A stretch of 64,000 nt of DNA from Psychromonas ingrahamii 37. GTDB lineage: Bacteria; Pseudomonadota; Gammaproteobacteria; Enterobacterales; Psychromonadaceae. Position 1 is the first letter of the stretch. Every line of letters starts with the position of its first letter. This document shows positions 11,166 to 22,318 of this stretch, in pieces. Location: assembly GCF_000015285.1 (NCBI RefSeq), contig NC_008709.1:1240001-1304000 (forward strand), given 5' to 3'. Both the position numbers and the translations under genes were made by a program. Below the pieces are notes generated by a model. That model was not told where the DNA came from. It made no database searches and was given only the letters and a program-made list of their open reading frames with translations.

Positions 11166-11711
11166 TTATAAAAGGCTCATTTTGATTAACAATGTTTGGT
11201 TTTTAACCAAAATTGATTGTAATGACGAGTTGGCCATTTTTTCTTGTGTCTTTTGATCATTAAATAGGTAGAACGGAGAAAACTGCACTGCCTTTTCTAA
11301 GCTTAATTGCGCAATTTTTTTTATTTCTGGCATTAAATCCGGTGGTATATTTTCTATTTCTAAAGAGATAATATTTGGATTAATAAGGTAAAAAGCCTTT
11401 TTTTCTGCATTGTAAGTGATGACCCCTTTTGCATACGCCCAGCCAGATCCTTTTATATTTCCAAGTACAGTGATATCGATACGGGTAAATACTCCAATTT
11501 GATCGCTTCCTTCAATTAAATCGACGCGAGAATCGTATATTTTAGCTGAAATATAAGCGGCTTCTTTTTTTATTGGCAGCTCTTTAGTGAGTTTCTCCTG
11601 CAGCTCCTGCTCGGTGATTTTCAAGGTATAGGGAAGGGCGGTTGCAAACGAAGGTAATGTAGACAATGAGGACAATGTTAATAAGCAGATAAAAAATATT
11701 CTATGAAGCAT
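11166..11711 (-). CDS. DUF1439 (YceB-like) envelope protein
   Basis: 181 residues with a Sec signal peptide (MLHRIFFICLLTLSSLSTLP, cleavage near SFA-TAL). The mature part follows the YceB/DUF1439 pattern: LKITEQELQEKLTKELP at the start, a central run of alternating beta strands (RIDITVLGNIKGSG, KKAFYLINPNII), and a C-terminal segment equivalent to the QPAYVL region of YceB (SPFYLFNDQ). E. coli YceB is a lipoprotein; here no lipobox Cys is present, so the protein is probably free in the periplasm. Function of the family is unknown. ATG preceded by AAGGAAAA. Confidence 0.75.
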   Translation of the reverse strand: MLHRIFFICLLTLSSLSTLPSFATALPYTLKITEQELQEKLTKELPIKKEAAYISAKIYDSRVDLIEGSDQIGVFTRIDITVLGNIKGSGWAYAKGVITYNAEKKAFYLINPNIISLEIENIPPDLMPEIKKIAQLSLEKAVQFSPFYLFNDQKTQEKMANSSLQSILVKNQTLLIKMSLL

Positions 11712-12013: not shown

Positions 12014-12562
12014 ATGAGATTAGCTTTATTTCCACTGCCTGTTTTTTTACTGCCCGAAGGGTTAACAAGGTTACGTATTTTTGAACCACGTTATAAGAGG
12101 CTAGTAGCAGAGGCTATGTCAACGGGGCAAGGTTTTGGATTATGCCTGCCGAAGGAAGGGCATAATCTCTATGATATAGGCATTCGCGTTGAAATATATA
12201 ATTTTGATCAGGACGAAAATGGTTTTTTAATTATTGATATCAAAGGCACTGATAGATTTACATTTGACGATGTAAGCTCAGATTCTGACGGTTTAAGGCA
12301 TGCTGATGTAACTCTGATAGATGGATGGGAAAGCATTCAAATGACGCCTCAATATGAGTTTATGCTGGCCCCCTTAAAAGCCGTTTTAACGTCTATACCT
12401 TTACATGTGGAACAAGTTAATCAACAAGGCTTTAATAATTTGAGCTGGATTTGTCAGCGTTGGTTAGAAATATTACCTGTGCCTGCCGATAAAAAATACT
12501 GGCTTGCTCGGCAAAGCGGCCCAGAGCCTACTGTTGAGTTTATCCGTGAAGTAATTCAGTAG
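12014..12562 (+). CDS. LON substrate-binding-domain protein (no protease domain)
   Basis: 182 residues that correspond to the N-terminal substrate-recognition domain of Lon: LALFPLPVFLLPEG at the start, then LRIFEPRYKRLVAEA, the hallmark strand-helix of the domain, and a helical C-terminal half. No AAA+ or Ser-Lys protease part is present. Stand-alone LON-domain proteins are common and mostly uncharacterised. AAGGAG 7 bases before the ATG gives a clear start. It is the first gene of the light-stress cluster, 110 bases before rpoE, with its own candidate ECF promoter. A role as a client-binding adaptor is only a suggestion. Confidence 0.85.
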   Translation: MRLALFPLPVFLLPEGLTRLRIFEPRYKRLVAEAMSTGQGFGLCLPKEGHNLYDIGIRVEIYNFDQDENGFLIIDIKGTDRFTFDDVSSDSDGLRHADVTLIDGWESIQMTPQYEFMLAPLKAVLTSIPLHVEQVNQQGFNNLSWICQRWLEILPVPADKKYWLARQSGPEPTVEFIREVIQ

Positions 12563-12590: not shown

Positions 12591-12617
12591 TGATCTAATC
12601 TCAAATTTTGACCGTAT
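12591..12617 (+). promoter_or_regulatory. Candidate RpoE autoregulatory promoter
   Basis: TGATC, 17 bases, CGTAT, about 55 bases before rpoE. It has the same core and spacing as the sites at 11962 and 57049. Autoregulation is usual for RpoE-ChrR operons. Confidence 0.65.
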
Positions 12618-12672: not shown

Positions 12673-13293
12673 ATGATAGCCAGAATAGCTCATAACTCGA
12701 CGGACATTACATTGAATAATACAAAACTTAATTCACTAGATAGTGAACAATTAAAAATAAATTTGTGGTTAAAATTGGTTGCAACCAAGCAGGATAAAGA
12801 AGCCTTTTCTGAGCTGTTCAAATGGTTTGCACCGAGAATTCGTGCGCACGGTATGCAGCGTTTTAAACAAGAAGCACTGGCAATGGATTTGGTACAAGAG
12901 ACGATGTTATTAGTGTGGCGAAAAGCCGTTTTGTTTAATGTGGATAAAGGTAAAGCCAGCACTTGGATTTACACCATAATGCGTAATTACTGTTTCGATA
13001 TGCTGCGTAAAAAACAAACTCAGAAAGAAGATACGATCAGTGATGATCTTTGGCCGGTTATTGAGCAGCAAGTACCGGATGATAAAGATGATCATTTACA
13101 GAATCGCTTATTATTAAGCCATCTGGGAAGTTTACCCTTAGAGCAAAAACAAGTCGTTGAAGCTATTTATTTGCAAGAAATGACTCAACAGGAATTAGCC
13201 ACTCATCTTGATCTCCCCTTAGGTACGGTTAAATCCCGGCTTAGATTGGCGATATCAAAATTAAAATCAAAATTGGAGGCAGATCTTGATTAA
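12673..13293 (+). CDS. rpoE: ECF RNA polymerase sigma factor of the RpoE-ChrR type
   Basis: 206 residues. Region 2 at about 40-110 (FAPRIRAHGMQRF, ALAMDLVQETMLLVWRK, KASTWIYTIMRNYCFDMLR) and region 4 at about 140-200 (LPLEQKQVVEAIYLQEMTQQ, LDLPLGTVKSRLRLAISKLK). Paired with a zinc ChrR anti-sigma, it belongs with the ECF group that in Rhodobacter sphaeroides responds to singlet oxygen. The stop overlaps the start of chrR by 8 bases, which couples translation of the pair. The ribosome site (GGAAGG) is unusually distant from the ATG, suggesting low translation. The symbol follows this ECF family, not E. coli sigma-E. Confidence 0.92.
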   Translation: MIARIAHNSTDITLNNTKLNSLDSEQLKINLWLKLVATKQDKEAFSELFKWFAPRIRAHGMQRFKQEALAMDLVQETMLLVWRKAVLFNVDKGKASTWIYTIMRNYCFDMLRKKQTQKEDTISDDLWPVIEQQVPDDKDDHLQNRLLLSHLGSLPLEQKQVVEAIYLQEMTQQELATHLDLPLGTVKSRLRLAISKLKSKLEADLD

Positions 13294-13936
13294 ACATCAT
13301 CCAACATCCGCATTATTAGCCAGCCATAGCGCTGCACAACTCCCTCTGTCTTTATCAATTGCGGTGAGTGCCCATCTTGAAATGTGCCCTAAATGCGTCA
13401 CTGTTACCAGACAAATAACGGAACAACAATCAGATCTTTTTGAAGCACAGGATGTCACAAAGAATATCAATTTTTCTAATATATTAGATAAAATTTTTGA
13501 GCATCAACCCGAGCGGCAGGTAGAGCCTAAAAAAGTAGTGATGAATAGCATTTCTGTTGCCGGGACTGAGTACCAATTACCGCGTGCATTTACCCATTTT
13601 ACGGATCTTAAATGGTCTTCTTTTGGTGCAATAAGCCGTGCGCGCGTGGTTAAGGATACAGATAATATTCGTGCTAGTTTATTACATATCGACAAAAATA
13701 GCATTATTCCCAGCCATACCCATAAAGGTTATGAGCTTACGCTATTATTAGAGGGGGCTTTTAGCGACGAAAGTGGTGTTTATAACAAAGGTGATTTCAT
13801 CTGGCTGAATAACGACCTTGAACATACCCCCTTTACTAAAGAGGGGTGTCTTTGTTATGCGGTTCAAGATGCGCCACTGCGTTTTGTCTCGGGTATCAGC
13901 CAGGCACTTAATCCGCTTGGTCAATTAATTTATTAA
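13286..13936 (+). CDS. chrR: ChrR family zinc anti-sigma factor with cupin domain
   Basis: 216 residues from a TTG start, supported by GGAGG at 13275-13279, 6 bases before it. The N-terminal anti-sigma domain has His4/His5 and HLEMCPKC (His30, Cys34, Cys37), the HxxxCxxC zinc site that binds the sigma factor. The C-terminal cupin (about 130-205) has SHTHKGYE (two His and a Glu) and a later LEHTPF His, the second metal site that senses singlet oxygen in the R. sphaeroides protein. It should hold RpoE inactive until photo-oxidative stress. All key ligands are present. Confidence 0.92.
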   Translation: MIKHHPTSALLASHSAAQLPLSLSIAVSAHLEMCPKCVTVTRQITEQQSDLFEAQDVTKNINFSNILDKIFEHQPERQVEPKKVVMNSISVAGTEYQLPRAFTHFTDLKWSSFGAISRARVVKDTDNIRASLLHIDKNSIIPSHTHKGYELTLLLEGAFSDESGVYNKGDFIWLNNDLEHTPFTKEGCLCYAVQDAPLRFVSGISQALNPLGQLIY

Positions 13937-13985
13937 AGATAAATAGGCCTCAATAACCTATATTTTAAATAAAAAAGGTAAAAAT

Positions 13986-14942
13986 ATGGTTGAGTTTTCA
14001 GATGAAAAAATTCAAGTTGGCATAAGCAGTTGCTTAATTGGCAACAAAGTCCGTTTTGATGGCGGGCATAAGCAGAGTTCATATTGCACTAAAGTCTTAT
14101 CCGATTATTTTGATTTTCAGCCTATCTGTCCGGAAATGGCCATTGGATTAGGGACACCTCGAAAAGCGATTCGCTTGGTTAAAGATGAAGACAGGATCCG
14201 TGTTATGGCTAGTGATGGTAGTTTTGAAGTCACTGAACAATTAACTGAATTCGGCGAAAAAACCAGCCCTTTATTAACCTCATTGAGCGGTTATATATTC
14301 TGTGCTAAATCGCCCACTTGCGGTATGGAACGGGTAACTCTTTATAATGAGGGCACTAATCAGGGTAATCGTGACGGAGTCGGCGTGTTTGCTGCAAAGG
14401 TGATGGCGGATCATCCTCTGCTGCCAGTAGAAGAACAGGGTCGTTTAAATGATCTGTTATTAAGGGAAAATTTTATCACTCGCGTTTTTGCTTACCATAG
14501 GTGGCAATCATTAGTCGCAGGCGGTTTAAGTATTCGCAAACTTATTCAGTTTCATGCCGAGCATAAATACTTATTAATGTCCCATAATGTCAAACTTTAT
14601 TATAAATTAGGCCCACTATTAAGTGGTAGCAAAGAAGCCATTGAGGTGGTTGCTAAGCAGTACATTGAGGGGTTTATGGCGACCCTTAAAACCTTACCTA
14701 ATCGTAAAAGTCACACTAATACGCTATCGCATCTGCAAGGCTATTTTAAGCGTTCACTCAGCAGTGCCGAGCGTGTGGATTTGGCAAATGACATTGATAA
14801 ATACCGCAAAGGTTTGTTACCGCTAATGGTCCCGATAACGTTAATTACGCATTATCTTACTTTATATCCCGATCCTTATTTAAAGCAGCAGGTCTATCTG
14901 CACCCTCATCCGGAAGAACTAAAACTACGCTATTCGCATTAA
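13986..14942 (+). CDS. rudS: TudS (DUF523)-DUF1722 fusion, RudS-like tRNA 4-thiouridine desulfidase
   Basis: 318 residues. The N-terminal DUF523/TudS domain (about 8-150) carries three Cys, Cys16 (GISSCLIG), Cys48 (QPICPEM) and Cys112 (KSPTCGMERV), the likely ligands of the 4Fe-4S cluster that takes up sulfur. The C-terminal DUF1722 domain spans about 190-310 (YHRWQSLVAGGLSIRKLIQF, LSHLQGYFKRSLSSAERVDL). To my knowledge such long fusions (RudS) remove the thiol from 4-thiouridine in tRNA, the near-UV chromophore, so a place in a light-stress operon makes sense. It is followed 36 bases later by photolyase. Family secure; the substrate is by analogy. Confidence 0.85.
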   Translation: MVEFSDEKIQVGISSCLIGNKVRFDGGHKQSSYCTKVLSDYFDFQPICPEMAIGLGTPRKAIRLVKDEDRIRVMASDGSFEVTEQLTEFGEKTSPLLTSLSGYIFCAKSPTCGMERVTLYNEGTNQGNRDGVGVFAAKVMADHPLLPVEEQGRLNDLLLRENFITRVFAYHRWQSLVAGGLSIRKLIQFHAEHKYLLMSHNVKLYYKLGPLLSGSKEAIEVVAKQYIEGFMATLKTLPNRKSHTNTLSHLQGYFKRSLSSAERVDLANDIDKYRKGLLPLMVPITLITHYLTLYPDPYLKQQVYLHPHPEELKLRYSH

Positions 14943-14978
14943 CAAAATACTCACTTTTTATGGTAAAGGATCACAAAG

Positions 14979-16340
14979 ATGCACTTGGTTTGGTTTCGTA
15001 ACGATTTACGTACGTCAGATAATTCAGCTTTATATTATGCTTGTTTAAAAGGCCCGGTAACAGGCATTTATTTTGTTACCCCCGGGCAGTGGAAAAATCA
15101 CCAATTAGCGCCTATTCAAGCTGATTTTATTGAGCAAAATTTAAAAGTTTTAGCTGAAGAGTTAGCGGCATTAGGTATTCCCTTGTTAATCGAAGAAGTC
15201 GCTGACTTTTCTCATATCCCGGCACGCCTTAAGCAGATCCAAAAAGATCACCATATTAATACTATTCATGCCAATGATGAGCCCGAAATTAATGAAAAAG
15301 AGCGCGATCAAGCGGTCAAAAAAGCCGGGCTGCCTTTAGTACTTTATCAGTGTGACTGTATTTTACAGGCGGGCAGCGTACTTACGAAGCAAGGTGGAAT
15401 GTATAAAGTATTCACCGCTTTTAGAAATGCCTGGATGAAAGAAGTAAAACAGACAGATCTCACGCCATTACCCAAACCTGCTGATCAGATGCCCTCCTTA
15501 AATGTGAGTTGGTCGAAAAATATAAGTGTTAATTATGACAAAAAATCCAGCCAAGCCTGGCCTGCGGGAGAGACTGCCGCGTTGCGGCGTTTACGGCATT
15601 TTTTATTACAGGATATAGAAGATTATCATCACAACAGAGATATTCCCTCTCTCGATGGCACATCCGGGTTATCTGCTTATTTAAAATTCGGCGTTATCAG
15701 TGCCAAACGTTGTGTTTATGAGGTACTGGCGGCTTTTCCCGATGCCTTAGATGCTCAGGACTCAAGTGTCTTTAGTTGGATAAATGAAATTGTTTGGCGT
15801 GAATTTTATCGCCATCTAATGATCTTTAATCCGCAATTATGTAAAGGGAAAAATTTCAATAAACTGGCAGATAATATCACTTGGAGCAATAACCCCGATG
15901 ACTTTAAAGCCTGGTGTGAAGGGCGGACAGGGTATGGATTGGTAGATGCTGCGATGCGTCAGTTAAATCAAACTGGCTGGATGCATAACCGCTTAAGAAT
16001 GGTAACTGCCAGTTTTTTAACTAAGCATTTACTGATCGATTGGCGTTGGGGTGAGGCTTATTTCAGGGAGCATTTAATAGACGGTGATTTGGCATCCAAT
16101 AACGGTGGCTGGCAGTGGGCTGCCAGTACAGGTTGTGATGCACAACCCTATTTTAGAATTTTTAACCCTATTATTCAGAGTCAAAAGTTTGATCCAAAGG
16201 GACTTTTCATCCGTAAATACGTCAAAGAACTAAATGGATTCGATAATAAAAAAATTCATTTTCCGGTAAACGCAATAGTTGAACATAAACAAGCAAGATT
16301 AAATGCGTTAGATAGATATTCAGTATTAAAAAAGGGTTAA
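14979..16340 (+). CDS. phrB: Deoxyribodipyrimidine (CPD) photolyase
   Basis: 453 residues. N-terminal alpha/beta antenna domain (HLVWFRNDLRTSDNSAL, as in E. coli Phr) and C-terminal FAD-binding helical domain: FSWINEIVWREFYRHLMIFNP near 265-285, WCEGRTGYGLVDAAMRQL near 307-324, WMHNRLRMVTASFLTK near 328-343, and DGDLASNNGGWQW near 363-375. Splits UV-induced pyrimidine dimers with visible light. The Trp electron-transfer chain residues appear present (WR...W...W). Preceded by AAAGGATC and embedded in the RpoE-ChrR operon, matching the light-induced phr of other ChrR regulons. Confidence 0.95.
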   Translation: MHLVWFRNDLRTSDNSALYYACLKGPVTGIYFVTPGQWKNHQLAPIQADFIEQNLKVLAEELAALGIPLLIEEVADFSHIPARLKQIQKDHHINTIHANDEPEINEKERDQAVKKAGLPLVLYQCDCILQAGSVLTKQGGMYKVFTAFRNAWMKEVKQTDLTPLPKPADQMPSLNVSWSKNISVNYDKKSSQAWPAGETAALRRLRHFLLQDIEDYHHNRDIPSLDGTSGLSAYLKFGVISAKRCVYEVLAAFPDALDAQDSSVFSWINEIVWREFYRHLMIFNPQLCKGKNFNKLADNITWSNNPDDFKAWCEGRTGYGLVDAAMRQLNQTGWMHNRLRMVTASFLTKHLLIDWRWGEAYFREHLIDGDLASNNGGWQWAASTGCDAQPYFRIFNPIIQSQKFDPKGLFIRKYVKELNGFDNKKIHFPVNAIVEHKQARLNALDRYSVLKKG

Positions 16341-16342
16341 TA

Positions 16343-16768
16343 ATGACAAGTGCACTGATTGATGATTTTTGTCGTGTATATCAGGGATTAGATAAGAATA
16401 ATCTAAGCCAGCTGGGGCTCGTTTACAGTGATAATATAAATTTCATTGATGCGCTGCATAACCTTAAAGGGTTAGATCAATTAAGCGAGTATTTTAGCCA
16501 TCTTTACGGGCATCTTCTTTACTGCAATTTTAATATTGAAGAGGTGATTGAGGAGGAAGGCAAAGCCTCTATTATATGGACGATGCAATATGCGCATCCA
16601 AAAATCAATAAGGGTAATACTATCTCTGTAAATGGCAGTTCTCACCTTAAATTTAATGAAAAAATTTATTACCACCGAGATTTTCTTGATATGGGGCAAA
16701 TGTTGTATGAGCATCTGCCCTTGCTCGGTGGCGTTATTCGAATGGTTAAAAACCGGGTTGCTTCATGA
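16343..16768 (+). CDS. SnoaL/NTF2-like protein
   Basis: 141 residues with the cone-shaped NTF2-like pattern: helices at the start (LIDDFCRVYQGLDKNNLSQL), a DALHNLKGLDQLSEYF segment, then alternating strands (ASIIWTMQYAHP, SGSSHLKF-like SVNGSSHLKFN, KIYYHRDFLDM). Proteins of this shape may be small enzymes or binding partners; the real role here is unknown. It starts 2 bases after the photolyase stop and its stop overlaps the next start (ATGA), so it is translated as part of this operon. Similar NTF2-like proteins sit in ChrR-linked clusters of other gammaproteobacteria. Confidence 0.8.
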   Translation: MTSALIDDFCRVYQGLDKNNLSQLGLVYSDNINFIDALHNLKGLDQLSEYFSHLYGHLLYCNFNIEEVIEEEGKASIIWTMQYAHPKINKGNTISVNGSSHLKFNEKIYYHRDFLDMGQMLYEHLPLLGGVIRMVKNRVAS

Positions 16769-17487
16769 AACGTATCTTAATTACAGGCGCCACCTCCGGC
16801 ATTGGTAAAGCCTTGTGTTTGCTTTATCAGAAGCAAGGTTATGCCGTTATTGCCTGTGGTCGTAATCAACAAGCCTTAGATGAACTGCGTAGTTTAAAAA
16901 ATGTGTCAACATTAAGCTTTGATATCAGTGACAAAGAGCAAGTCGAAGAGGCTCTGAGAACACTGCCTGAGTTAGACATGGTTATTTTAAATGCGGGTAG
17001 TTGCGAATATATCGATAATGCCAAAAATTTTGACGGGGATCTCTTTGCACGCGTTATTACCACCAATTTAATCGCTTTGGGCTATTGCTTACAGAGTGTG
17101 TTACCGAAAATAAAAAAAGGCGGACAACTCGCTTTAATGGGCTCAAGCGCAATTTATTTACCTTTTTCTCGGGCAGAAGCCTACGGGGCGAGTAAAGCGG
17201 GGGTTGCTTATTTAGCTAAAACCTTGGCGATCGACCTTATTGATGATCAGATCAGTGTTTGTTTGATTAATCCCGGTTTTGTGAAAACGCCTTTAACGGA
17301 TAAAAATGCTTTTTCTATGCCTATGCTGATAACAGCTGATAAGGCTGCTGACTATATTTTTAAAGGGTTGCTTAAAGGTAAAAAAGAAATACATTTTCCT
17401 GCTTTTTTTACCTTTACGCTGAAAATATTAGCCTTCTTTCCGGACGCCGTTTGGTTTTTTATTGCGACAAGGATGATTAATAAATGA
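16765..17487 (+). CDS. Short-chain dehydrogenase/reductase in light-stress operon
   Basis: 240 residues. Cofactor motif TGATSGIG near residues 7-14, NAG near 76-78 (VILNAGSCEY), catalytic Ser in MGSSAIYLPF and YGASK near 142-146, and NPGFVKTPLTD following. A hydrophobic C-terminal tail (FFTFTLKILAFFPDAVWFFI) suggests membrane association, fitting a lipid substrate. It overlaps both neighbours by 4 bases. Substrate unknown; the adjoining FAD enzyme and CFA-like methyltransferase point to fatty-acyl or phospholipid chemistry, which is inference. Confidence 0.88.
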   Translation: MKRILITGATSGIGKALCLLYQKQGYAVIACGRNQQALDELRSLKNVSTLSFDISDKEQVEEALRTLPELDMVILNAGSCEYIDNAKNFDGDLFARVITTNLIALGYCLQSVLPKIKKGGQLALMGSSAIYLPFSRAEAYGASKAGVAYLAKTLAIDLIDDQISVCLINPGFVKTPLTDKNAFSMPMLITADKAADYIFKGLLKGKKEIHFPAFFTFTLKILAFFPDAVWFFIATRMINK

Positions 17488-18740
17488 AAAAAATAGCCAT
17501 TGTAGGAAGTGGTATTTCGGGACTTACTTGTGCGCATCTGTTAAATGAAAAACACGATATCTCTGTTTTTGAAGCAGGGAATTATATCGGTGGGCATACG
17601 GCAACTCAGGATATCCTCTATCAGGGAAAAAAGTGGCGACTTGATACTGGTTTTATTGTTTTTAATGATCGAACCTATCCAAATTTCGAAAAATTAATGG
17701 CCAAGATTGGTATCGATAGACTGGCCACTGAAATGAGTTTTAGTGTCAGAAATGAGGATACCGGGCTTGAATATAGCGGCAGTAATTTAAACGGTTTATT
17801 CGCTCAACGTACTAACCTTTTCAATCTGAAATTTCTTAAACTGATTAAAGAGATCCTGCGTTTTAATAAATTATGTCAGTCAGCCTGGGAATCTAAAAAA
17901 CTAGACGATAAGATAAGCTTAGGGTCTTTTTTGGATCAGCAAGGGTTTAGTGAATATTTTCGTTCACATTATATATTACCCATGGGCGCGGCTATTTGGT
18001 CTGCCAGTCTGCATGATATGGAAGCTTTTCCTCTGTATTTTTTTGTGCGTTTTTTTTATAACCACGGATTATTAACTATTAATAATCGTCCGCAATGGTA
18101 TGTGGTTCCTAACGGTTCTGATTCTTATGTGGAACCGTTAATTAAAGGTTTTGAAGATAAGGTCCATCTTAATGCGCCAGTCTCTGAAATTTTCCGTGAG
18201 AATGGCCATATTAAATTAAAAACAGCAGAGGGTGATTGGCAGATATTCGATGAAGTGATTCTGGCATGTCACAGCGATCAAGCGATGTCGATACTCAAAG
18301 ACTTAAGTCAGGATGAACAGGATATCCTAGGTAAAATGGCTTATCAAAAAAATGAGGTCGTTCTGCATACCGATATAAGTATGTTGCCTAAAAAGAAACT
18401 TGCTTGGGCGGCATGGAATTATCACTTAAACAGTGATAATGAGCGGCCTGTTGCGGTGACTTATAATATGAATATATTGCAAAATCTACCTGCCGATGCA
18501 CCCATTTTTTGCGTTACTTTAAATCACACTCAGTCGATAGATGCGAATAAAATTTTAGGGCGGTTTAACTATTCACATCCGGTTTTTAATCAAGCTTCTA
18601 TCGATGCACAAAAAAACAGGTTGGCTATTTGCGGGAAAAATAATACCCATTTTGCGGGGGCATATTGGTATAACGGTTTCCATGAAGATGGTGTGGAGAG
18701 TGCACTTGATGTGTGCCGCCGTTTTGGTGTTTCTCTTTAA
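17484..18740 (+). CDS. NAD(P)/FAD-dependent amine-oxidase-type oxidoreductase
   Basis: 418 residues. N-terminal dinucleotide-binding motif IAIVGSGISGLTCAHLL followed by the acidic strand end (SVFEAGNYIGGHTAT), and a C-terminal FAD-closing segment (FAGAYWYNGFHEDGVESAL). This is the flavin amine-oxidase/desaturase superfamily that includes protoporphyrinogen oxidase and phytoene desaturase relatives. It is consistently found with DUF1365 and CFA-like genes in ChrR regulons; in R. sphaeroides genes of this set are linked to furan fatty acid formation, so an acyl-chain desaturase is plausible. The reaction is not shown by sequence alone. Confidence 0.85.
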   Translation: MKKIAIVGSGISGLTCAHLLNEKHDISVFEAGNYIGGHTATQDILYQGKKWRLDTGFIVFNDRTYPNFEKLMAKIGIDRLATEMSFSVRNEDTGLEYSGSNLNGLFAQRTNLFNLKFLKLIKEILRFNKLCQSAWESKKLDDKISLGSFLDQQGFSEYFRSHYILPMGAAIWSASLHDMEAFPLYFFVRFFYNHGLLTINNRPQWYVVPNGSDSYVEPLIKGFEDKVHLNAPVSEIFRENGHIKLKTAEGDWQIFDEVILACHSDQAMSILKDLSQDEQDILGKMAYQKNEVVLHTDISMLPKKKLAWAAWNYHLNSDNERPVAVTYNMNILQNLPADAPIFCVTLNHTQSIDANKILGRFNYSHPVFNQASIDAQKNRLAICGKNNTHFAGAYWYNGFHEDGVESALDVCRRFGVSL

Positions 18741-18764
18741 GCTGCCGAATAAGAGGAGTGTTTA

Positions 18765-19514
18765 ATGGAAAAGCTTAACTCTTGTATTTATGTTGGTGAA
18801 GTCGGTCATAAACGTTTTACGCCGCGTGAACATCATTTTTCCTACAAGATATTTTTTTTGGCGATTGATCTTGATGAGATAGAAAAACTCAGTGAACTTG
18901 GTCGGTGGTTTAAGTGGGATAAATTTGCGCCTTTAAGTTTTCGTTCGAGAGATTATTTAGAGCACAAAAAAACCATTAATAAACAACTTGTTTGGCAAAA
19001 AGTAGCGCAGTTAGGCGGAGAGAATTTAGCGGGTCGGGTTATGTTTATTGGACAGATGCGCTGTTTTGGGCTGTATTTTAGTCCGATAAATTTATATTAT
19101 TGCTACCAGAAAGATAACCAATTAAGTTATTTACTCGCGGAAGTCAGTAATACTCCCTGGAATGAACGACACTACTACCTTATTGATATAAATAAGGATT
19201 TAATCTGTGATAAAGCATTCCCTGTGTCACCTTTTATGGATTTAGAGATGCAGTATCATTGGCACATTAAAGCGCCCGGAGAACAGTTGAGTTTGCATAT
19301 TGAGAACCACACGGATAAAAAAATATTTACAGCCAGCTTGAATATGAAAAGTATCGAATTTTGTAACAAAAATTTACGACAATGTTTGCTTAACATCCCC
19401 GTGATGACCCTAAAAACCTTGGCCGGTATTTATTGGCAAGCTTTAAAACTGTTTATTAAAGGTGTGCCTTTTATTGGTCACGCTGTAAAAAAGGAAATTG
19501 ATAATGGCCGTTAA
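18765..19514 (+). CDS. DUF1365 family protein
   Basis: 249 residues, whole-length DUF1365: opening IYVGEVGHKRFTPREHHFSY, the central GQMRCFGLYFSPINLYYCYQ and the HYYLIDIN / FPVSPFMDLEMQYHW blocks, rich in conserved His, Tyr and Trp. Function of the family is unproven; it always travels with an FAD oxidoreductase and a CFA-synthase-like gene, as here, so it is probably one step of acyl-lipid modification. AGAGGAG precedes the ATG. Its 3' end overlaps the methyltransferase gene by 11 bases. Confidence 0.88.
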   Translation: MEKLNSCIYVGEVGHKRFTPREHHFSYKIFFLAIDLDEIEKLSELGRWFKWDKFAPLSFRSRDYLEHKKTINKQLVWQKVAQLGGENLAGRVMFIGQMRCFGLYFSPINLYYCYQKDNQLSYLLAEVSNTPWNERHYYLIDINKDLICDKAFPVSPFMDLEMQYHWHIKAPGEQLSLHIENHTDKKIFTASLNMKSIEFCNKNLRQCLLNIPVMTLKTLAGIYWQALKLFIKGVPFIGHAVKKEIDNGR

Positions 19515-20745
19515 TACAACAAAACTAAATACAGATATTGAAGCAATGGCTTATATAGATCAGTTTGCTAAAAAGGTATTGGTATCGATATTAGGAAAAA
19601 TGCAGCAGGCCTGTTTGATTTTAGTCGATCAGCAACAGGAAATTATTTTAGGGGATCCTAACGCAAGCTTAAAAGGCAAAATTGTTATAAAAAACAGTAA
19701 AACCTATCGGAAAATTTTGTTGGGCGGAAGCGTTGCTGCAGGGGAGTCTTATATTCAAGGCTGGTGGAGCAGCCCGGACTTGACTAAGGTTATTCAAGTA
19801 TTAGGACGTGAACAGGGGGTACAGGACGAAATTGAAAAACGTCTTGCAAAAGTGATGGCGATTCCCACTTGGATTTATCATAAGGCCCGCAAAAATACCC
19901 GTAGCGGCTCAAAAAAGAATATTCTTGCACATTATGACCTTGGCAATGATCTTTATGAGCAATTTTTAGATAAAGAGATGCTTTACTCAAGCGCAATTTA
20001 TCCAACCTCAGATGCCAGTTTAGAAGAAGCCCAGCTGCATAAATTAAAAACTATTTGTGACAGACTTGCGTTAAAAAAAGGCGAAACATTACTGGAAATA
20101 GGAACCGGCTGGGGTGCCCTGGCCATTTATGCAGCACAGCATTATGGCGTAAAAGTCACTACTACTACTATTTCAGAAGAACAGTTTTTATACACACAAG
20201 CACGTGTCAAAAGCTTGGGATTAGAAGGCAGTATTACATTATTAAAATCCGATTATCGAGATCTGACCGGACAGTACGATAAGTTAGTGTCAATCGAAAT
20301 GATTGAAGCTGTTGGCCATGAATACCTGGCGAGTTTTTTCGAAATCTGTAATAACCACCTGAAACCGCATGGAAAAATGTTGATTCAAGCTATTACTATT
20401 GCGGATCAGCGTTATGACCAATACCGCTCTAGTGTGGACTTTATTCAGCGTTATATTTTTCCTGGTGGCTGCTTGCCCTCGATCAGTGTAATGGCCAATA
20501 ATATCAACAATAAAACCGATATGGTAATCACTTCATTGCATGACATTGGCATGGATTATGCCCAAACATTAAACCACTGGCGTGAGCAGTTTGAGATTTC
20601 TCTCCTTGAAATAAAAAAATTGGGATATAACGATGATTTTATTCGTTTATGGCGTTTTTATTTCTGTTATTGCGAAGGTGCCTTCCTGGAAAGAAATATC
20701 AGTGCGGTGCATCTGATTGCCGCTAAACCCGCTTTTAGAGCCTGA
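19504..20745 (+). CDS. Cyclopropane-fatty-acyl-phospholipid-synthase-like SAM methyltransferase
   Basis: 413 residues from the ATG at 19504, preferred over a TTG at 19498 because AAGGA lies 8 bases before it. N-terminal lipid-binding part, then AHYDLGNDLYEQFLDKEMLY (CFA family mark) near 145-165, SAM motif LLEIGTGWGALAIYAA near 195-210, and EMIEAVGHEYL and YIFPGGCLPS downstream. It transfers a methyl or methylene group from SAM to unsaturated acyl chains in membrane phospholipids. ChrR-regulated homologues in R. sphaeroides take part in furan fatty acid synthesis rather than plain cyclopropanation, and this gene context is the same kind. Confidence 0.9.
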   Translation: MAVNTTKLNTDIEAMAYIDQFAKKVLVSILGKMQQACLILVDQQQEIILGDPNASLKGKIVIKNSKTYRKILLGGSVAAGESYIQGWWSSPDLTKVIQVLGREQGVQDEIEKRLAKVMAIPTWIYHKARKNTRSGSKKNILAHYDLGNDLYEQFLDKEMLYSSAIYPTSDASLEEAQLHKLKTICDRLALKKGETLLEIGTGWGALAIYAAQHYGVKVTTTTISEEQFLYTQARVKSLGLEGSITLLKSDYRDLTGQYDKLVSIEMIEAVGHEYLASFFEICNNHLKPHGKMLIQAITIADQRYDQYRSSVDFIQRYIFPGGCLPSISVMANNINNKTDMVITSLHDIGMDYAQTLNHWREQFEISLLEIKKLGYNDDFIRLWRFYFCYCEGAFLERNISAVHLIAAKPAFRA

Positions 20746-20755
20746 GGTTTTTAAT

Positions 20756-21292
20756 ATGCGGTGCTTTATTAGAAAACACTTTTACTGGTTTAATTTTATT
20801 TGGTTCCAGTTAATGTGGTTTATTGCTGTTTTTTTTACGGTCAGCGGGGAGATTTTTTTAATATTTTCCTTACTGCTGCATTTTTATTTGTCGCCTGATC
20901 GTAAATTTGATTTAGCCAGTTTAATCACTATCTCGGCAATTGGGGGAACGGTCGATCTGTTATTATCCTGGCTTGGAATAATGATTTTTCCCGAAGCGGC
21001 TCTTTTACCGCTCTGGTTAGTTTTATTATGGGCTCACTTTGCTGTGGCACTCAATCATGGCATGTCTTGGTTGAATAAAATTCCGCTCTATTTTCAAGTT
21101 GTTTTTGGCGGATTATTCGGACCGCTCAGCTATTACGCCGGGTACAAATTCGGGGCGGTTGATTTTCCACTTCCCCCTTTACAGACAGTATTTATATTTA
21201 TAGTGATCTGGGCAATACTTCTACCGGTATACCTGTCCATATCGCGAAGTTACGGTGATCGTTATGACAAATCTAAACCAAAATATAGCTAA
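20756..21292 (+). CDS. DUF2878 inner-membrane protein
   Basis: 178 residues from the ATG at 20756 (GAGG lies about 8 bases upstream; an in-frame upstream start at 20717 would extend into the preceding gene). It is highly hydrophobic with about five membrane spans (for example FNFIWFQLMWFIAVFFTVSG and LLPLWLVLLWAHFAVALN). The pattern fits DUF2878, a family found mainly in RpoE-ChrR linked operons and without known function. It starts 10 bases after the methyltransferase and overlaps the next gene by 29 bases. Confidence 0.8.
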   Translation: MRCFIRKHFYWFNFIWFQLMWFIAVFFTVSGEIFLIFSLLLHFYLSPDRKFDLASLITISAIGGTVDLLLSWLGIMIFPEAALLPLWLVLLWAHFAVALNHGMSWLNKIPLYFQVVFGGLFGPLSYYAGYKFGAVDFPLPPLQTVFIFIVIWAILLPVYLSISRSYGDRYDKSKPKYS

Positions 21293-21800
21293 GAAACGAC
21301 TTTTATTAGTATTCAGTTTTGCGGCTGTCCTGCTTTTTTCTAACCTGGCATATTCAAATGTGACGGCGCAGCTTAAAACCGTCGGTAAGGGAGAAATGTC
21401 ATGGTTATTTATGGACGTTTATCAGGTTTCATTACACAGTGCCGATGGCCGTTACGTCCACCAAGAATACCCTCAAGCCTTAAAAATTCGCTACCAGCGC
21501 TCTTTTAAGAAAGAGGGGTTGATCAAAGCAACGGCTGACGAATGGCAAAAAATGAATATTGCCACTCCATTATATAAACCCTGGCTAGCACAACTTTTTT
21601 CTTTATGGCCGAATGTAGACAGTGGCGATACGCTCACCTTTTTGGTGGCGAGAAATGGTCAGGGCACTTTTTATCATAATGATCGTTTATTAGGTGATAT
21701 TGAAAACCCTAATTTTAGCAGTGCTTTTCTGGATATATGGTTATCAAAAAAAACCAGTGAACCTGATTTACGCAGACAATTAATAGGTGAAATAAAATGA
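21264..21800 (+). CDS. Chalcone-isomerase-like periplasmic protein
   Basis: 178 residues from ATG 21264; a GTG at 21255 is also possible. Signal peptide at about 12-30 (RLLLVFSFAAVLLFSNLAYS). The mature part has VGKGEMSWLFMDVYQVSLHS and ALKIRYQRSFKKEGLIKAT, the pattern of bacterial chalcone-isomerase-fold proteins, which usually lack the plant active site and are thought to bind fatty acids. It overlaps the DUF2878 gene by 29 bases and the DUF3833 gene by 4. Position suggests handling of modified acyl chains in the envelope; this is inference. Confidence 0.78.
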   Translation: MTNLNQNIAKKRLLLVFSFAAVLLFSNLAYSNVTAQLKTVGKGEMSWLFMDVYQVSLHSADGRYVHQEYPQALKIRYQRSFKKEGLIKATADEWQKMNIATPLYKPWLAQLFSLWPNVDSGDTLTFLVARNGQGTFYHNDRLLGDIENPNFSSAFLDIWLSKKTSEPDLRRQLIGEIK

Positions 21801-22318
21801 AAATATTGATAAGTTTAATTTTCAGTTTGATGATTTTAGGATGCAGCTCGCAAAACCTGGATGACTATGCGAATAGCTCCCCAAAGTTTGATGTTGAGAA
21901 TTATTTCAAGGGGCCATTACAAGCACAGGGTATTGTTCTGGATCGCGGTGGCAAGGTAACACGGCGCTTTACGGTTGAGATGCTTGGCACCTGGAAAGAT
22001 GGTCAAGGAAAATTAGAGGAGTGGTTTGTATTTGATGACGGCGAAAAAACCACACGTACCTGGCAAATCACTAAATTAAAAGAGGGCCATTATATTGGTA
22101 CTGCGGGTGATGTGGTTGGCGAAGCCATTGGAGAAAGTAACGGTTTTGCATTGCATTGGGATTATCAATTGGATTTGCCTGTTGACGGTAAAGAGATACA
22201 AGTAACCTTTGATGATTGGTTATACCAGGTGGATAACAAGGTCGTCATAAATCGCAGTTTTATCACTAAATGGGGATTTAGAGTGGGTGAAGTGATTTTG
22301 GTGATCACTAAAAAATAA
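21797..22318 (+). CDS. DUF3833 lipoprotein
   Basis: 173 residues. Lipoprotein signal with lipobox MILGC (Cys16), so the mature protein is a lipidated envelope protein; the residue after Cys is Ser, compatible with outer-membrane sorting. The rest follows DUF3833: YFKGPLQAQGIVLDRGGKVT, GTWKDGQGKLEEWFVFDDG and a C-terminal WGFRVGEVILVI. The family has a calycin-like beta pattern, consistent with lipid binding, but no proven role. It is the last gene of the operon and starts in ATGA overlap with its neighbour. Confidence 0.85.
   Translation: MKILISLIFSLMILGCSSQNLDDYANSSPKFDVENYFKGPLQAQGIVLDRGGKVTRRFTVEMLGTWKDGQGKLEEWFVFDDGEKTTRTWQITKLKEGHYIGTAGDVVGEAIGESNGFALHWDYQLDLPVDGKEIQVTFDDWLYQVDNKVVINRSFITKWGFRVGEVILVITKK

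Follow-up and report, generated by a model that had tools for sequence, protein, structure and literature searches.

A predicted furan fatty acid operon of the sigmaE–ChrR type in Psychromonas ingrahamii 37

Described furan fatty acid systems and related loci

In alphaproteobacteria, the UfaM, UfaD and UfaO steps of furan fatty acid synthesis have been proven and act on phospholipid (PMC7380195). The R. palustris genes RPA2571-2570-2569 (UfaD, UfaO and UfaM) suffice for a C19 furan acid, and the R. sphaeroides Ufa genes are RSP2144, RSP1090 and RSP1091 (PMC7380195). Here, a related locus is described in a window of 64,000 nucleotides from Psychromonas ingrahamii 37 (contig NC_008709.1, positions 1,240,001 to 1,304,000; all coordinates below are those of the window), a bacterium with one chromosome of 4.56 Mb (PMC2405808). 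Judged from its sequence, a twelve-gene unit on the (+) strand at 12673–22318, with a sigma factor gene first and a DUF3833 gene last, is very probably a furan fatty acid operon with a UfaM-UfaD-UfaO core, of the singlet-oxygen or light-stress sigmaE–ChrR type. The pathway itself is already known from purple bacteria, and the window holds a further member of it.

The triad order of the window is common to the named R. palustris loci, where UfaD, UfaO and UfaM lie in a row in the order of RPA2571, RPA2570 and RPA2569; these loci were reached by a named-genome scan with a Rhodopseudomonas-type methyltransferase, to which photosynthetic reaction-centre genes, sought in one family, had pointed. 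Rhodobacteraceae-type loci, so labelled from their RSP1091-1087-like synteny, carry UfaD, UfaO, MFS_2, DUF3833 and short-chain dehydrogenase/reductase (SDR) genes with divergent sigE and ChrR genes. Their gene order fits that of RSP1091-1087, and their products fit the lengths published for RSP1090 to RSP1087 (250, 402, 186 and 245 residues); orthology to the R. sphaeroides Ufa proteins rests on family-level placement. In the same family a UfaM-type gene follows a photolyase gene, consistent with an unlinked RSP2144. The sigmaE and ChrR genes adjoin the R. sphaeroides-type operon as they do that of the window, and SDR and DUF3833 genes occur in both. Unlike these two described systems (PMC7380195), the window operon lacks an MFS gene and a FufM-like gene, contains extra NTF2-like, DUF2878 and chalcone-isomerase-like (CHI-like) genes, keeps the photolyase, sigma factor and ChrR genes all on one strand, and probably has 16:1w7c as its main substrate.

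Related loci have also been described in gammaproteobacteria. The Shewanella oneidensis RpoE2 operon SO_3386-SO_3374 (PMC4336711) and the Aeromonas salmonicida cfa cluster (PMC10012899) have the gene order of the window where that order is described, with ybgA, phrB and cfa, and NTF2, SDR, FAD, DUF1365, cfa and DUF2878 genes in common. In the passages that describe them, the genes are called cfa and no link to furan acids is drawn. As given there, the S. oneidensis sigma-chrR pair (SO_1986-1985) lies at a separate locus, unlike that of the window. Shewanella putrefaciens makes furan fatty acids, according to a 1997 paper as cited in PMC7380195, and the methylated intermediate was formed in Escherichia coli by a UfaM from Halomonas, where three ufa genes lie in a row (PMC12089945). 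The plant UFAMD/CPS fusions and AtUFAO1 (PMC10940516, PMC3132707) form a comparable set: the flavin adenine dinucleotide (FAD) part is related to UfaD, the methyltransferase part to UfaM, and there is a DUF1365 partner; unlike in the window, the two parts are fused in one chain, and some of these proteins make cyclopropane acids.

The core genes and the identity of the methyltransferase

The first-pass annotation of 16343–22318 had named an FAD oxidoreductase, a DUF1365 protein and a CFA-like methyltransferase together with five further genes (NTF2-like, SDR, DUF2878, CHI-like and DUF3833), and had likened the group to the Ufa genes. Pfam supports each name, and the likeness is borne out by the placement of the methyltransferase in the UfaM clade and by full-length UfaD and UfaO homologues.

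The predicted S-adenosylmethionine (SAM)-dependent fatty acyl methyltransferase at 19498–20745 (+; CMAS 2.4e-83) is assigned to the UfaM clade, not to Cfa, on its phylogenetic placement and active-site letters. The UfaM reference set comprised photolyase-linked Rhodobacteraceae orthologues and named Rhodopseudomonas palustris strains. In a maximum likelihood tree of 39 rows, the UfaM-type rows, including the window protein and R. palustris, fall on one side of a branch with support of 99/94, while the Cfa rows form their own clade (95/91). The UfaM clade holds the methyltransferases of the Rhodopseudomonas ufaD-ufaO-ufaM triads as well as the photolyase-linked Rhodobacteraceae ones. Comparison with ordinary Cfa, a check put forward in the first pass, gave no grouping with Cfa in the trees, and a topology that constrains the window protein with Cfa is rejected by the approximately unbiased (AU) test (p = 7e-8). 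A wider tree of 73 rows agrees on the UfaM side (98) and has a weak Cfa branch (39) because of two long rows.

E. coli Cfa (b1661) belongs to the same two-domain SAM enzyme family, and its bicarbonate site consists of C139, E239, H266, I268 and Y317 (PMC3132707, PMC11387697). Of these residues the window protein retains E239, I268 and Y317. It has S139, A240 and Q266 where E. coli Cfa, a member of the other clade from an organism with no DUF1365 partner, has C139, H240 and H266. Q266 is present in 98/98 and A240 in 97/98 UfaM-type sequences, a set that includes near-duplicates fetched twice and does not amount to 98 independent events; all 13 Cfa-type sequences have C139, H240 and H266. Both marks of Cfa membership, C139 together with H266 and grouping with characterised Cfa, are absent from the window protein.

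The candidate FAD-dependent acyl desaturase at 17484–18740 (+; Amino_oxidase/NAD_binding_8) is a full-length UfaD homologue, 37–39% identical over ~415 aa to the R. palustris and Rhodobacteraceae proteins. Adjacent to it lies the UfaO homologue (18765–19514, +; DUF1365 2.3e-79), a candidate O2-dependent furan-forming enzyme and the sole DUF1365 protein of the genome, which is also full-length and 29% identical over 241 aa to R. palustris UfaO orthologues. Invariant polar residues in the UfaO alignment include H15, R17, D63, E126, N129, Y138 and K150. The predicted structure of the window UfaO (predicted local distance difference test score, pLDDT, 83.5) matched no solved fold at E <= 0.001, and no relative of UfaO, the DUF3833 protein or the CHI-like protein turned up when solved structures were searched by sequence. 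At one conserved loop, most gammaproteobacterial UfaO sequences are a residue longer (NTPW.ER) than the alphaproteobacterial ones (NT-FG), a change that could reflect a difference in substrate or cofactor.

An alternative reading makes the methyltransferase an ordinary cyclopropane synthase, with cyclopropane acids as the membrane protectant that the operon supplies; the annotation of Vibrio cholerae VC1122 assumes as much. Raw BLAST identity is useless for telling UfaM from Cfa, as E. coli Cfa and R. palustris UfaM each share 37% identity with the window protein, and this equal identity is the first of several points that weigh against furan synthesis. Cyclopropane synthases are also found among the plant relatives with similar active-site letters: as in the window protein, the cotton members of the UFAMD/CPS group mostly have Q266, with S139 in 2/3, and the family makes cyclopropanes (PMC3132707), so S139, A240 and Q266 mark the family, not the product. 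UfaO identity to alphaproteobacterial proteins is just 26–29%, and the published fatty acid analysis of P. ingrahamii, made without photo-oxidative stress, reported mainly 16:0 and 16:1, and neither branched nor polyunsaturated acids (PMC2405808). Cyclopropane synthesis further draws on the best NCBIfam match of the methyltransferase, the Cfa equivalog, although its 290 bits lie under the cut-off of 400, and on the cyclic acids also seen in the strain with Halomonas UfaM, whose E. coli host has its own Cfa (PMC12089945). It is opposed by the clade placement and the AU test, by the substituted bicarbonate-site letters, and by UfaD and UfaO, which always occur beside the UfaM-type gene or elsewhere in the genome. 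Some genomes possess both Cfa-type and UfaM-type genes, which suggests distinct roles. Together, this evidence makes an ordinary cyclopropane synthase very improbable, and UfaM is the preferred assignment.

Besides the window methyltransferase gene, the genome has no strong member of the CMAS family. No second, short CMAS-family gene of the FufM-like kind was found there, the other matches reaching at most 37 bits against 131–139 for FufM candidates in Rhodopseudomonas-type genomes. Elsewhere, eight of the sampled loci (L037, L046, L047, L056, L058, L065, L070 and L081) contain a second, shorter CMAS-family gene near the ufa genes; these shorter genes (H240, H266, F268) form a separate clade and may encode FufM or another lipid methylase.

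Sigma factor, ChrR and the extent of the operon

The unit opens with an extracytoplasmic function (ECF) sigma factor of the sigE/RpoE2 type (12673–13293, +; Sigma70_r2/r4; NF008890 331.9 bits, cut-off 284) and a ChrR-type anti-sigma factor (13286–13936, +). The latter scores 185.1 bits against TIGR02451 (cut-off 124.5) and contains a Cupin_7 domain and the zinc motif H30-x3-C34-x2-C37, features that identify it as ChrR. The first pass understated the link to ChrR, because both regulatory genes lie directly upstream of the rest of the unit, on the same strand, with a matching promoter-like site before the sigma gene. This site, TGATCT-N15-CCGTA at 12591–12616 (+), ends 56 bases 5' of the sigma gene start and resembles the Shewanella RpoE2 sites in the list given in PMC4336711. 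Among sigE homologues from related loci, 27 of 38 have a similar site upstream; for random stretches the figure is 2.6%. Genome-wide, the promoter pattern yields 51 matches, close to the 35 of a reversed-pattern control. A perfect sigmaE-type match at 16190–16215 (+) was rejected as a promoter because it lies within conserved photolyase codons, where it encodes FDPKGLFIRKY; coding matches of this type recur in many other photolyase-NTF2 loci.

Published work on related bacteria touches on the same regulation. Promoter prediction places the corresponding Shewanella operon among the RpoE2 targets (PMC4336711), the V. cholerae 'cfa' gene VC1122 is induced by blue light in a response that ChrR mediates in large part (PMC5241685), and the Aeromonas genes, in the same order, are co-regulated (PMC10012899). 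The sections of these three papers that deal with the genes do not name the product as a furan acid. A protein with a LON substrate-binding domain is encoded just 5' of the sigma gene (12014–12562, +). The Lon-domain protein SO_1987 of Shewanella appears among the RpoE2 targets in the published list, so the window protein may share the regulon.

Eight genes do lie at 16343–22318, as first described, all on the (+) strand with neighbors that overlap or are at most 25 bases apart. The start of the unit was set too far downstream, since the sigma factor gene opens it at 12673 and the ChrR gene and two others come next. These two encode a YbgA-like protein with DUF523 (2-thiouracil desulfurase-like) and DUF1722 domains (13986–14942, +; Pfam), a neighbor in 18 of the 80 loci compared below, and a DNA photolyase (14979–16340, +; FAD_binding_7 1.4e-76, DNA_photolyase 5.2e-36). 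The widest gap within the unit is ~50 bases (13936 to 13986), and ~700 bases without a named gene follow its 3' end before the next large gene. On the 5' side, the opposite strand encodes a small protein whose N terminus is signal-like (11166–11711, −). The genome also contains four gas-vesicle family matches, and P. ingrahamii is gas-vacuolate.

Conservation across Pseudomonadota

The survey covered 397 Pseudomonadota genomes, of which 187 contain DUF1365, and 80 DUF1365 loci were fetched for neighborhood comparison. A UfaD-type gene is close to DUF1365 in all 80 loci, and a UfaM-type gene is in the locus in 72. Among loci with the gene order of the window, NTF2-SDR-UfaD-UfaO-UfaM is present in 30/30 and is joined by DUF2878, CHI-like and DUF3833 genes in 15/30, while three loci (L008, L010 and L024) contain all twelve genes of the unit. 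The eight-gene grouping is far above chance. Of the 138 genomes with DUF3833, 132 also have DUF1365, as do 81 of the 83 with DUF2878. Fisher p values for these co-occurrences overstate the evidence because the genomes are kin, although the direction is clear. The accessory gene set is conserved with the core and is not specific to the P. ingrahamii genome. DUF1365 was also found in 96 plasmid-collection records, some of them chromosome-sized (e.g., NZ_CP129856.1, NZ_CP102455.1 and NZ_CP071528.1); several of the plasmid DUF1365 genes have FAD or CFA-like neighbors, and the module may therefore travel horizontally.

Accessory proteins

The nearest solved relatives of the NTF2/SnoaL-like protein (16343–16768, +; SnoaL_2 8e-10) are limonene epoxide hydrolases. 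A role as an epoxide hydrolase was rejected, as the Arg-x-Asp positions, which we take to be the catalytic Arg and Asp of limonene epoxide hydrolase, are replaced across the whole family alignment. The SDR (16765–17487, +; adh_short 2.8e-35) is 30–32% identical to the SDR that closes the Rhodobacteraceae operon and is its counterpart. The DUF2878 membrane protein (20717–21292, +; DUF2878 9.1e-42) is strongly hydrophobic, and its true start is probably downstream of the listed TTG. The CHI-like protein (21255–21800, +; Chalcone_3 8.4e-13) has an N-terminal signal-like segment and residues Y80, R82 and W162 that are invariant in the alignment; among its CHI-fold relatives elsewhere are proteins that bind fatty acids or haem (PMC9996372). 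The DUF3833 lipoprotein (21797–22318, +; DUF3833 8.2e-69) has an N-terminal lipobox (MKILISLIFSLMILGC-SS) whose Cys is invariant in 19/19 aligned members. Its structural model resembles nitrobindin and lipocalin barrels, a likeness that is suggestive given the low confidence of the model (pLDDT 57.7), and the lipoprotein is possibly a barrel of this kind. The membrane or periplasmic signals attributed to the extra genes in the first pass are thus found in DUF3833, CHI-like and DUF2878 proteins, whereas the sequences of the NTF2-like protein and SDR have none.

The first-pass annotation also proposed that the extra genes add further steps or transport of the product to the outer membrane. In this version the core makes furan acids, and the NTF2, SDR, DUF2878, CHI-like and DUF3833 proteins alter the final product or its location. 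Their strong co-occurrence with DUF1365, their position in the operon, the signal-like N terminus of the CHI-like protein and the lipoprotein nature and barrel-like model (of low confidence) of DUF3833 all agree with such a role, and their conservation with the core argues for a shared function. Yet single deletions of RSP1087, RSP1088 and RSP1089 in R. sphaeroides left furan fatty acids unchanged (PMC7380195); RSP1087 and RSP1088 are matched by order and size to the SDR and DUF3833, and the third deletion concerns the MFS gene. Many loci, moreover, keep the UfaD-UfaO-UfaM triad without NTF2, DUF2878 and CHI. Further steps or export are less likely than not, and the five accessory proteins are most likely dispensable for ring formation.

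The accessory genes could instead be other members of the sigmaE regulon, with roles in photo-oxidative repair, haem or quinone handling or envelope control that are unrelated to furan acids. A photolyase and a DUF523/DUF1722 protein are also in the operon, some CHI-fold proteins bind haem (PMC9996372), and deletion of the V. cholerae DUF2878 gene VC1123, numbered right after VC1122, mainly altered porin expression (PMC12971978). Throughout the phylum, however, DUF3833 and DUF2878 go with DUF1365, including cases in which the photolyase gene lies elsewhere, and we place this explanation somewhat short of an even chance. Our preferred reading, held with low confidence, is that the five proteins act at the envelope on the lipid or on what its oxidation yields. 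A more specific proposal is that the gammaproteobacterial module makes and handles a furan lipid in a way that differs from R. sphaeroides, with the CHI-like and DUF3833 proteins binding a C17 furan acid made from 16:1w7c and moving it through the periplasm so that the outer membrane would be shielded too, or with NTF2 and SDR chemistry removing oxidised furan; this we regard as unlikely.

Predicted pathway and product

In the furan fatty acid operon proposed here, stress would cause ChrR to release sigmaE, and the regulator, photolyase and Ufa genes would be induced together. UfaM would then methylate a w7 acyl chain on phospholipid at its cis double bond and shift that bond, UfaD would take away two hydrogens to give a methyl-diene, and UfaO would add an oxygen derived from O2 and close the furan ring. 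The resulting membrane furan fatty acid would scavenge singlet oxygen.

The principal fatty acids of P. ingrahamii are 16:0 (18.7%) and 16:1w7c (67.0%) (PMC2405808), and a C17 furan acid is therefore predicted as the main product. With the known C18 chemistry shifted by two carbons, 16:1w7c would be converted to 9-methyl-10-16:1, then to 9-methyl-8,10-16:2 and finally to 8,11-epoxy-9-methyl-hexadeca-8,10-dienoic acid. The known C19 furan acid would be expected from any 18:1w7c. A dimethyl furan form is not expected because the genome has no second strong CMAS-family (FufM-like) gene.

Significance for Pseudomonadota

The locus is of interest for its predicted C17 product, for its conserved accessory proteins and for its bearing on 'cfa' annotation. 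Many 'cfa' genes beside DUF1365 are probably misannotated and encode furan fatty acid methylases, which a few residues and their neighbors distinguish. The locus supplies candidates for the genes behind the furan acids that a 1997 paper described from Shewanella, and five conserved accessory proteins become testable in one lipid-stress setting. With DUF1365 in nearly half of the genomes sampled, furan fatty acid synthesis is predicted in a large share of Pseudomonadota.

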